35,418 bases of DNA from positions 1 through 35,418 of the forward strand of contig WHTG01000007.1 of assembly GCA_009377835.1 (NCBI GenBank), in the 5' to 3' direction. The translations under genes and the position numbers were made by a program. Source of the stretch: Nitriliruptorales bacterium (GTDB taxonomy: Bacteria > Actinomycetota > Nitriliruptoria > Euzebyales > Egibacteraceae). The notes beneath the pieces are model-generated. The model was not told the DNA's origin. It made no database searches and worked only from the letters and a program-made list of their open reading frames with translations. This document shows, piece by piece, positions 18,265 through 22,355 of the stretch (position 1 is its first letter; each line of letters opens with the position of its first letter).

Positions 18265-20268
18265 TCAGTCCTCCTTCTGCGCTGCGGCGATCACCTGCCT
18301 GGCCACCTGCTCGGGGACTTCCTCGTGGTAGCTGTAGCGCATGACGACCGTGCCTGCCCCAGAGGTCAGCGACCGCAGTTCCCCCGTGTACGACAGGAGC
18401 TCCGCTTCCGGGACCTGCGCTCGAACGACGGTCTTGCCGGGTGCGGCCGCCTGTTCGGTGCCCATGATCCGGCCGCGCCGCGAAGACAGGTCGCCCATGA
18501 CAGTACCCGTCAGATCGTCGGGCACGGTGATCTCGATCTCCATCACCGGTTCGAGCAGCATGACGCCCGCCTGCTGTGCCGCGTCGCGGAACGCCAGCGA
18601 CCCGGCGACCTCGAACGCCACCTGCGACGAGTCGACCGAGTGGTGCTTCCCGTCGTACAGGCGGACCGAGACGTCCACCACCGGGTAGCCGGCGAGCACG
18701 CCGTGCGTCATGGCTTCGCGGATGCCCTTCTCGACGGAGGGGATGAAGGTGTTGGGGATGACGCCGCCGACGATCGCGTCGGTGAACTCGAAGCCCGTGC
18801 CACGATCCAGCGGTTGCACCTCGATCTCGCAGATGCCGTACTGCCCATGTCCGCCCGACTGCTTCACGTGCCGGCCCAGGCCGGTGGCCGATCCGCGCAG
18901 CGTCTCGCGGTACGAAAGGCGCAGCGGCACCCGCTCCACGTGCACGCTGAACTTCCGCTCCAGGCGCGCCAGCGCGACGTCCACGTGGGTCGGGCCGTAC
19001 GCCCGGAGGACGATCTGGTGGGTCTCGGCATCCCGCTCCACCCGTAGTGCCGGGTCCTCTTCGGTCAGCCGTGCCAGAGCGGTCGACAGCTTGTCCTCGT
19101 CACCCGCCGACGCCGCCTTCACGGCGACGCGGTAATACCCCTCCGGCGGCATGACCGTCTCCAGTTTCGGGTCGACGCCGCTGGTCAGCAGGTCCCCCGT
19201 ATGGACGTCGTCGAGCTTGCCGACTGCGAAGATCGCTCCGGGCGGCACGTGTTCCACGGCGGTCTGCTGTTTGCCGTGGATGGTCATCAGGTAGTGCATG
19301 CGCACGTCCGCCCCGGTGCGCGACACCTTCAGGTGGTCGTCCTGTTTCACGGTCCCCGACAAGCTGCGCATGATGTTGATGTGGCCGATGTACGGGTCCG
19401 ACAGGGTCTTGGCCACGTATGCCGCGATGCCCTCGCCGGAGACATCGGGTCCGGGGCCCTCCTCGACGATGAAGTCGGCCAGCAGCTTGACACCGATGTC
19501 CATCTGCGCCGACCCGCAGAGCACAGGGAAGAACCCGGAGCTTTGAATCCCGTGCGCGAAGCAGTCCGCGAGCTGCTTGACCTCGGGAACCTCGCCTTCC
19601 AGGTAGCGCTCGAGCAGCTCGTCGTCGTTCTCGACTATCGCTTCGATCAGGAATTCGCGATTCTGCCGAGCCTGCTCGACACGGTCGTCTGGGATCGGCC
19701 CCTTCACCCGCTTGCCGTCGACCTTGCTGACGGCGATCGAGTGGAGGAGGTCGACGACCGCGGTGAACTCGCGCTCCACACCGACCGGCATGTGCACGGG
19801 GGCGAGGGGCTTGCCGTAGCGCTCCCGCAATGTCTCGATGATCGGCTGGTAGGACGCCCGTTCCTTGTCCAGCTTGTTGAGAAACACGATCCGGGGCTTG
19901 CGCAGCTCGTCGCACGCCCGCCACAGTTCGTCGTGCTGGGCCTGCACGCCGACGCTGGCGTCGATGACGAAGACGGCGAGGTCGGCCGCGGTCAGCGCCG
20001 GATAGGCATCACCAATGGCGTCGGGCGTCCCGGGGGTGTCGATGATGTTGACCGTGTGCTCCCGCCACTCCAGCGCAGCGACCGCCATCGACAGCGAATG
20101 TTCTCGATCGATCTCCTCGGGCTCGTAGTCGAAGGTCCGCCCTCGCCCATCGGTACTCCCGCGTAGACGGAGCAGCGCCTCTGCCAGTGTGGTCTTCCCT
20201 GTGCCCCCGTGCCCGACCAGCACGACGTTGCGGATCGACGGGCGCGCGTTGGGATCAATGCCAGGCAT
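18265..20268 (-). CDS. Elongation factor G-like GTPase
   Basis: A paralogue of EF-G (similar to mycobacterial FusA2) whose cellular role is not settled. The 667-residue protein has G1 GHGGTGKTT (19-27), DTPG (77-80) and NKLD (131-134), followed by EF-G domains II-V, including GYPVVDVSVRLYDGKHHSVDSS in domain IV (split: GYPVVDVSV, then HHSVDSS) and PVMEIEITVP in domain V. It differs from housekeeping EF-G in the P-loop (usually AHIDAGKTT) and lacks the RGITI switch I sequence, having REHSLSM instead. It is slightly shorter than EF-G. The ATG at 20268 has a strong AACGGAGG site (20276-20283) seven bases upstream. No ribosomal protein genes are nearby, which also argues against it being the main EF-G. 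Confidence 0.92.
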   Translation of the reverse strand: MPGIDPNARPSIRNVVLVGHGGTGKTTLAEALLRLRGSTDGRGRTFDYEPEEIDREHSLSMAVAALEWREHTVNIIDTPGTPDAIGDAYPALTAADLAVFVIDASVGVQAQHDELWRACDELRKPRIVFLNKLDKERASYQPIIETLRERYGKPLAPVHMPVGVEREFTAVVDLLHSIAVSKVDGKRVKGPIPDDRVEQARQNREFLIEAIVENDDELLERYLEGEVPEVKQLADCFAHGIQSSGFFPVLCGSAQMDIGVKLLADFIVEEGPGPDVSGEGIAAYVAKTLSDPYIGHINIMRSLSGTVKQDDHLKVSRTGADVRMHYLMTIHGKQQTAVEHVPPGAIFAVGKLDDVHTGDLLTSGVDPKLETVMPPEGYYRVAVKAASAGDEDKLSTALARLTEEDPALRVERDAETHQIVLRAYGPTHVDVALARLERKFSVHVERVPLRLSYRETLRGSATGLGRHVKQSGGHGQYGICEIEVQPLDRGTGFEFTDAIVGGVIPNTFIPSVEKGIREAMTHGVLAGYPVVDVSVRLYDGKHHSVDSSQVAFEVAGSLAFRDAAQQAGVMLLEPVMEIEITVPDDLTGTVMGDLSSRRGRIMGTEQAAAPGKTVVRAQVPEAELLSYTGELRSLTSGAGTVVMRYSYHEEVPEQVARQVIAAAQKED

Positions 20269-20288
20269 CGCTGGGCCTCCGTTGCAAG

Positions 20289-20310
20289 GCGCCGGCACCG
20301 TCACCGGCGC
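20289..20310 (-). other. Hairpin just upstream of the EF-G-like ribosome site
   Basis: GCGCCGG (20289-20295) pairs with CCGGCGC (20304-20310) around an 8-nt loop. The stem ends five bases upstream of the AACGGAGG ribosome site. It could tune translation or belong to the tail of the preceding transcript. Function is unproven. Confidence 0.35.
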
Positions 20311-20423: not shown

Positions 20424-22355
20424 TTACACGACGCCGCCGACCAGGGCGCCGATGCCCAGGAGCGCCCCGTACGCGAGGAGGCCGCCCAGCACGACCGCCA
20501 CACGGAACCAGCGCGGCATCGTGACTGCGGCGAACAGCAGGTAGGCCATCACGCCGAGGAGCGGTACCAGCAGGACAACCAGTACCCAGCCGAGTGTTGC
20601 CCCGGCCGTTGTGTCCTCCCGCCGCGCCAGGTCCCACAGCGCCAGCGCCACCCAGGCGGCGAGCAGAACACCCGGCAGCAGGTACAGGTAGATCCCGAAG
20701 AACAGGCTCCATGGGCCTGTCGCGGCGACGGGCAGTCCGGCCACGAGCAGCTCCCGGCCCCGTGGTGGGTCGTCGGGTGCGGGCGGTAGCGAAATCGCGT
20801 CGAGGTCGACCCTGGCCGCCTCGTAGACGCCGGCTGCGGGCCGGACCTCGGCTTCGGCACCACCCGGCATCTGCGGTTGCCGTGGTGGCAGCGGCCCGTC
20901 CTCGACCGGGTTGTCGGGCACCTGGCCGGTGCTGGCCTCGGCGAAACGGCCGGCATTCAACGCCAGCGTCGACAGGTTCCACCGCAGCGGCAGCCGGGGG
21001 CCTGCGCATCCCTGGAAGGCATGCAGACCCGGCGGCATCGCCGTCGCTGCACGGTTGCCCTCGAAGCAGTTCTCGGCACCCGCCGGACCCGAGAGCGCCA
21101 CGTCGGCAATACCCGATCCGCTGATCGCGTTGTCCCGCACCACGTTGCCGCTCGCGAACCAGAAGTGCTTCGACAGGTTCGGTGTCACGAGGACGCCGTG
21201 CGTCGCGCTGTTGACGATGCGGTTGCGCTCGACGCGGATGTCTTCGGCTCCGGCGAGGATGACGCCGTTGCCGAGGGCGGGCCATTCGATGCCGAGGACT
21301 GGTACGTCGGTCCGGCCGTGATCCGCCACCACGTTGCCGACGATGTCGACGTCCCGAACCGGCGGCAGCAACTCCGAGTCAAGGGTGTTCGGGGCGATGC
21401 CCGCCACATTGTGACGCCATGTCGAGTTCACGATCTGCAGCTCGCCGCCGGCGTTGGTCCCGGAGTAGCCCAGCGCGTTGTACTCCGCCACGACGCTGGC
21501 GATCACCGCTCGGCAGGGTCTGCACTGACCGATGTAGAAGCCGGCGTCGGCGGAGCCGGACGCGTAGCTGTGCTCGAACAGCCCCTCGGTCGCGTCGAAG
21601 GCGTAGATGCCGTAAACGGCGTTGTTGACGGACGTCACGTAGCTGGCGCGGTACCCGGTGACGCCGGTCCAGAACACTCCGTTCTGCACGGCGTTTCGTA
21701 CCGTCAGGTTCTCCACCGCCACGCCGTCGGCGGTGATGTTGATCCCGTTCGGTCGTTCGAACCCGCCGTCGATGACGACGTCGTTGCGGTCGGTTCCGCG
21801 CAGCACCAGCGAGGGGGTCGTGACGTCCACCTGTTCCCGGTACGTGCCGGGCCCGACCAGGACGAGATCGCCCGGGTCGGCCGCGTCGACCGCCTCCTGG
21901 ACCGTTGGATGGTCCTGCGGCACCCGGCGGGTCATGCCGCTGGCCTCGGCGACGGGTTCCAGCAGCGACTCGTCGCCTCCCGGGGAGTACTCGACGCCCC
22001 CGACCACCAGCGTCGCCGCCATCCCGTCGCCGTCGGGGGTTCCGTGGAATGTGCAGTAGAAGAGGTGCACCCCCGGCTCGTCGGAAGTCACCGTGGTCTG
22101 CGCCTCCATCGGCATCGCGATGTCTCCGAACGTGGCCTCGGTGCTGAAGGCGTGGTCGACCGCGACGGCGTTGTGAACCGCCCGCCCCGCGTTGCGGAAC
22201 GTCACTCTCCCGCCGACCGGTACCCGTGTCACGTCACGACTGAAGAAGTTGTCCATCATGTCGATCCGGGTCTCCCCTTCGGGAACACCTCCCCCGCCGA
22301 CGCCCACGCAGGCAGTCAGCAGCAATCCCGCGACAAGTGCTGCGACGACCCGCAC
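20424..22355 (-). CDS. Lipoprotein with cupredoxin, NosD-like beta-helix and membrane tail
   Basis: The 643-residue precursor has an unusual order of parts. Residues 1-16 are a lipoprotein signal with lipobox LTAC (Cys16). Residues 30-120 form a cupredoxin with a full type-1 copper set: His61, Cys101, His104 and Met112 (YCTFHGTPDGDGM). Residues 145-480 form a right-handed parallel beta-helix that opens like NosD/pectate-lyase-type repeats (TVQEAVDAADPGDLVLVGPG) with many N/G/V turns and a CRPC pair. A Pro-rich linker (490-545) leads to three hydrophobic C-terminal segments; one (GWVLVVLLVPLLGVMAYLLF) resembles the PLDc_N membrane module. Signal Cys and C-terminal helices would tether it at both ends outside the membrane. 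A role in extracytoplasmic electron transfer, copper handling or polysaccharide binding is inferred only. GTG start, probably leaderless. Confidence 0.85.
   Translation of the reverse strand: MRVVAALVAGLLLTACVGVGGGGVPEGETRIDMMDNFFSRDVTRVPVGGRVTFRNAGRAVHNAVAVDHAFSTEATFGDIAMPMEAQTTVTSDEPGVHLFYCTFHGTPDGDGMAATLVVGGVEYSPGGDESLLEPVAEASGMTRRVPQDHPTVQEAVDAADPGDLVLVGPGTYREQVDVTTPSLVLRGTDRNDVVIDGGFERPNGINITADGVAVENLTVRNAVQNGVFWTGVTGYRASYVTSVNNAVYGIYAFDATEGLFEHSYASGSADAGFYIGQCRPCRAVIASVVAEYNALGYSGTNAGGELQIVNSTWRHNVAGIAPNTLDSELLPPVRDVDIVGNVVADHGRTDVPVLGIEWPALGNGVILAGAEDIRVERNRIVNSATHGVLVTPNLSKHFWFASGNVVRDNAISGSGIADVALSGPAGAENCFEGNRAATAMPPGLHAFQGCAGPRLPLRWNLSTLALNAGRFAEASTGQVPDNPVEDGPLPPRQPQMPGGAEAEVRPAAGVYEAARVDLDAISLPPAPDDPPRGRELLVAGLPVAATGPWSLFFGIYLYLLPGVLLAAWVALALWDLARREDTTAGATLGWVLVVLLVPLLGVMAYLLFAAVTMPRWFRVAVVLGGLLAYGALLGIGALVGGVV

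Follow-up and report, generated by a model that had tools for sequence, protein, structure and literature searches.

The window, which is the whole stretch of 35,418 nucleotides from a Nitriliruptorales bacterium that was analysed, encodes a predicted lipoprotein in which a cupredoxin domain, a right-handed beta-helix and a tail of three transmembrane (TM) helices are joined in a single chain. With middling confidence, we propose that this protein transfers electrons outside the cytoplasm as a membrane-tethered module. It would be the cupredoxin version of the TIGR03805/TIGR03806 pair, in which a beta-helix protein is partnered by a diheme cytochrome. A function in copper assembly is considered distinctly less probable, because the carrier that accompanies the helix across clades is either heme or copper. 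No paper describing the cupredoxin-helix-tail architecture was found in the open-access literature, and we found no report that assigns a function to the TIGR03805 beta-helix or to the diheme cytochrome that partners it.

Table 1. Features of the cupredoxin-beta-helix gene; positions are those of the window.
Feature	Position	Strand	Evidence
Whole gene: cupredoxin, beta-helix and three-TM tail lipoprotein, 643 aa, GTG start	20424..22355	(-)	Frame open from GTG at 22355 down to stop at 20424; full-length orthologs, 41-65% identity
Signal peptide, residues 1-16; lipobox LTAC with Cys16	22308..22355	(-)	LLLTAC after hydrophobic signal (L13-T-A-C16); similar motif in 21/27 orthologs
Cupredoxin domain (residues ~28-122)	21990..22274	(-)	Ortholog profile hits plastocyanin/amicyanin at 1e-13 to 1e-10
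Putative type-1 Cu ligand His61	22173..22175	(-)	Invariant 27/27, aligned with plastocyanin ligand
Putative type-1 Cu ligand Cys101	22053..22055	(-)	Invariant 27/27
Putative type-1 Cu ligand His104	22044..22046	(-)	Invariant 27/27
Putative type-1 Cu ligand Met112	22020..22022	(-)	Invariant 27/27; His-Met loop 7, family 6-11
Right-handed beta-helix (residues ~144-455), TIGR03805-like	20991..21926	(-)	Beta_helix 6e-9; TIGR03805 5.8e-22, below cut-off; 23-residue conservation period
Conserved helix CxxC (C278, C281)	21513..21524	(-)	Invariant in 27; >90% across a wider set of 38 homologs
C-terminal anchor, three TM helices (residues ~548-643)	20427..20714	(-)	Hydropathy; helices in model
PLDc_N match (residues 569-608)	20532..20651	(-)	E=1e-8; 35.1 bits, cut-off 23.3

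The original prediction had named a lipobox, a complete set of type-1 copper ligands, a long beta-helix and three C-terminal membrane segments with a PLDc_N-like tail, and all of these were recovered (Table 1). In the corresponding domain searches, Beta_helix and PLDc_N exceeded their cut-offs, and Cupredoxin_1 stayed below its own. The same architecture is present across the phylum, where 27 full-length orthologs with 41-65% identity were aligned. A proline-rich linker connects the beta-helix to the tail, in which three hydrophobic segments are centred near residues 557-568, 590-605 and 625-634; a low-confidence structure model places helices at 548-580, 583-612 and 615-642. Since no phospholipase domain follows the PLDc_N match in the 643-amino acid chain, a membrane anchor is the best interpretation of the tail. 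The gene is flanked by an aminotransferase class V (serC-like) gene and a gene for a 679-amino acid EF-G-like GTPase (18265-20304), which lies 120 bases downstream on the same strand and is not a conserved neighbour in relatives. No redox neighbour of the window's own gene was found, and no cytochrome gene adjoins it as in the TIGR03805/TIGR03806 pairing; a cupredoxin is fused to the helix instead.

With the window sequence alone, the Pfam models Cupredoxin_1 (15.1 vs. 27 bits) and Copper-bind (13.4 vs. 21.2 bits) remain sub-threshold; the close relatives L066 and L067_4 exceed the Copper-bind cut-off. A profile built from the 27 orthologs matches plastocyanin (2.5e-13) and amicyanin (about 1e-11). 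In these alignments, the His, Cys, His and Met residues coincide with the known ligands, and H61, C101, H104 and M112 are invariant in all 27, at identities to the window protein down to 41%. The four ligands thus occur in the same order and alignment as in plastocyanin and amicyanin; however, the His-to-Met loop, which comprises four residues in plastocyanin, is longer and variable in the window family (6-11), and the domain is fused to a beta-helix. AlphaFold reached a pLDDT of 34.7 for the full-length protein with a three-sequence alignment and 48.3 for the cupredoxin alone, and the predicted geometry of the copper site rests on profile alignment and ligand conservation. Judged from these sequence features, the cupredoxin probably binds a type-1 copper; such sites normally serve electron transfer.

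The Pfam model Beta_helix covers residues 203-320 above its cut-off. Among the more specific models, TIGR03805 (beta_helix_1) matches residues 152-395 with 78.2 bits, below the 141.5 bits required for membership, and the NosD models are also below cut-off, TIGR04247 with 48.8 against 300 bits and PF05048 with 18 against 23.6 bits. The helix is hence closer to TIGR03805 than to NosD, and the analogy to NosD drawn in the original prediction is weak. Both proteins share an extracytoplasmic right-handed beta-helix and a copper context; however, the window protein carries its own type-1 domain and a membrane anchor, and its genome is without NosZ. The original prediction had noted the lack of a nos gene in the window; in this genome, which is 93.9% complete, no NosZ over the cut-off of the model was found, whereas the same search was positive in eight of 80 genomes; a role in NosZ assembly in this organism was rejected on these grounds. 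NosZ is not associated with the helix family either (6/55 carriers vs. 2/25 others). Conservation along the helix has a period of 23 residues (p 0.001), and the invariant residues D254, Q277, N301 and N323 occupy, by sequence register, equivalent or nearly equivalent positions in consecutive coils. According to this alignment-based register, a single face of the helix may be conserved to bind a ligand or partner. The CxxC motif at residues 278-281 may form a disulfide or a metal site.

The genomic context of TIGR03805 was sampled in three named records, from Ruegeria, Novosphingobium and Hymenobacter. The Ruegeria protein ends in a cytochrome-c-like domain with a CxxCH motif, which matches Cytochrome_CBB3 slightly below the cut-off (1.2e-5), and its gene lies downstream of those for a diheme cytochrome, a CCP_MauG peroxidase and a TPR protein. 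In Novosphingobium, the TIGR03805 gene (385 bits) is followed by one for TIGR03806, an SO2930-family diheme cytochrome, and the Hymenobacter member has no cytochrome neighbour. The window protein resembles TIGR03805/TIGR03806, its best-matching helix family, in that the helix is adjacent or fused to an extracytoplasmic one-electron carrier, but this carrier is a cupredoxin rather than a cytochrome, the chain includes a three-TM anchor and the score falls short of the family cut-off (78 vs. 141.5 bits). What the clades have in common is not copper itself but a carrier of single electrons, which may be heme or copper; this speaks for electron transfer rather than copper assembly.

Neighbours of relatives were determined with a crude gene caller on fetched loci, followed by clustering and a tblastn check. 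Among 56 related helix proteins, a cupredoxin is fused in 31 and nearby in 12, a multicopper oxidase (MCO) of one of three kinds is encoded within 5 kb of 24, and a DUF1996 neighbour accompanies 12, all in one clade; these counts include close relatives, and some neighbours are hidden by contig ends, the contigs being partly draft. On the tree of the 56 proteins, MCO state changed at least four times and DUF1996 state at least once. Redox-type genes cluster close to the helix gene: they fill 26 of the 104 places at a distance of one gene (11 of them DUF1996), 15 of 93 at two genes and 2 of 88 at three, and they are almost lacking at four to eight genes, with a single place beyond the third. 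The order in the main clade is cupredoxin-helix-tail gene, a separate copy of the tail of around 100 amino acids and a two-domain MCO, with short gaps or overlaps between the genes. This MCO has a Tat-signal match and a type-1 motif in its N-terminal domain and is therefore of type C (naming of types B and C according to PMC13151041). The tail copy, a three-TM PLDc_N-like gene, lies between the helix gene and the MCO at L022, L025-L033, L037, L038 and L043; it often abuts or overlaps the MCO and may be the oxidase's own anchor. In G227, the cupredoxin is encoded by its own gene upstream of a helix-tail gene, and the MCO follows downstream. A distant group is linked to the other two-domain kind, type B, with the type-1 motif in the C-terminal domain (L087, L092 and L096; L088 by tblastn), and one of its members has a cupredoxin-type MCO near the helix gene (L094, E=8e-10). 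The physiological roles of two-domain MCOs are described as poorly understood (PMC13151041). Given the MCO neighbours and the cytochrome partners in Proteobacteria, the relatives point to the electron-transfer half of the copper or electron-transfer device that had been predicted, more than to copper assembly.

In a further clade, a separate cupredoxin and a helix protein without fused domains are combined with a DUF1996 protein. This linkage was observed at L021, L077, L079, L081-L084, L086, L089 and L093, usually with the separate cupredoxin nearby. Conserved His motifs suggest a metal site in the DUF1996 protein, for which no solved relative was found. In a fungus, DUF1996 has been tied to stress by oxidants and metal ions, whereas no connection with Cu2+ sensitivity was seen (PMC4738358). 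Because of this missing link to Cu2+ sensitivity, the lack of a solved relative and the restriction to one clade, no copper role is claimed for the DUF1996 neighbour.

The window protein forms a clade with L024, L063 and L064 (support 98), which is nested in the MCO-linked group; at 1e-20, a type-C MCO is absent from all four genomes. The simplest reading is that the window's lineage lost the oxidase and kept the cupredoxin-helix protein. Matches to Cu-oxidase_2 in the window's genome come from one gene only, a cupredoxin-MCO fusion on contig C66 (G000:C66:430-1767, L105). It is the only MCO gene found in this genome, carries its own N-terminal cupredoxin and is a possible partner. No Cu-oxidase_2 match was found in G118 (100% complete) and G192, though the full-length protein is present in both. 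In the phylum sample, a type-C MCO is encoded in 13 of 45 helix-bearing genomes and in 29 of the 351 genomes without the helix protein (odds ratio 4.5, p 2e-4, kinship not corrected), so that 29 of the 42 genomes with this oxidase are without the helix protein. The helix protein and the type-C MCO are associated, and neither needs the other. A strict role in MCO maturation is disfavoured, since each occurs without the other; as the neighbouring oxidase appears to have been lost from the window's clade and the protein persists in some genomes without an MCO, it is probably not simply that oxidase's assembly factor.

Matches at 1e-30 or better were obtained in 45 of 396 genomes of the phylum. 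Within the window's own family (21 genomes), a match at 1e-40 was obtained in the window's genome alone, and the nearest kin belong to another family of the same order and to a more remote family of the phylum; horizontal transfer is therefore likely. No relative was found in the viral contigs searched, and a contig search with a single query sequence returned solely an Acidimicrobiales MAG with two helix paralogs. Judged from this MAG and from relatives in Streptomyces, the phylum is Actinomycetota. Helix homologs with 44-48% identity are present on haloarchaeal megaplasmids (L117:6899-8104 and L116:6896-8085), which suggests transfer between domains; the Haladaptatus homolog has RNNPFH in place of CxxC. 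Plasmid pSCL4 of Streptomyces clavuligerus also encodes a helix homolog (L118:4633-7233), for which no gene is listed and which is divergent from an open reading frame resembling, by eye, a secreted DyP-type peroxidase.

In the proposed electron-transfer module, the protein would be attached to the membrane at both ends, through an N-terminal lipid predicted from the lipobox and through the three C-terminal TM helices. The beta-helix, as a relative of TIGR03805, would dock to a partner or substrate or act upon it, and the fused cupredoxin would pass one electron at a time via its type-1 copper. In many relatives, the two-domain MCO encoded directly downstream is the likely acceptor, which would hand the electrons to O2; in the window's lineage, another acceptor would be needed, perhaps the single cupredoxin-MCO of the genome or a respiratory oxidase. 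More tentatively, and at a lower probability than the module as such, the protein might be part of an undescribed redox system, in which an anchored cupredoxin-beta-helix oxidoreductase takes electrons from a helix-bound extracellular substrate and delivers them to the co-encoded two-domain MCO or another terminal acceptor, parallel to the cytochrome version of Proteobacteria.

The main rival is a copper delivery or assembly factor, which would capture copper outside the membrane and load MCOs or other cuproenzymes in a NosD-like manner. We regard it as rather unlikely: type-1 sites bind copper tightly and usually function in electron transport, the type-C MCO mostly does without the helix protein, the helix protein is present in genomes without a detected MCO and heme proteins are the partners of more remote members of the family. 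The strong linkage to several MCO kinds, the Tat-signal match of the main linked MCO and the conserved CxxC would all fit copper delivery, as would the distant similarity to NosD (3.7e-13), which is, however, sub-cut-off and occurs in a genome without NosZ.

Still less probable is a surface scaffold or carbohydrate binder, whose helix would bind an extracellular polymer and whose cupredoxin would only sense or tolerate copper or oxidants. Pectin-lyase-like folds often bind sugars, and both the conserved face suggested by the 23-residue period and the missing redox neighbour of the window's gene are consistent with such a function, but it would leave the invariant copper ligands, the repeated linkage to oxidases and the fused or adjacent electron carriers unexplained. 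That the protein donates electrons to a nitrogen-oxide or nitrite-reductase-type enzyme, with the linked MCO as a relative of copper nitrite reductase (CuNIR), appears very unlikely. Matches of the linked MCO to TIGR02376 (1.4e-25) and to CuNIR structures (1e-48 to 1e-25) would fit this reading, but its 90 bits are far under the CuNIR cut-off of 296, and by eye it keeps four HxH motifs, as would be expected for a trinuclear centre that reduces oxygen. The CuNIR-like chain of PDB 9cck also speaks for such a donor, as its core resembles the linked MCO (2e-48) and is fused to a C-terminal domain resembling the window cupredoxin; in contrast to the window protein, no beta-helix and no anchor were found in the matched chain.

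Taken together, the replacement of a cytochrome by a cupredoxin and the linkage to three MCO kinds in different lineages provide a concrete hint that the helix has a redox role, and blue-copper constructs from the window family would offer a means to test it. The finding may in addition be relevant to what two-domain MCOs do (PMC13151041).
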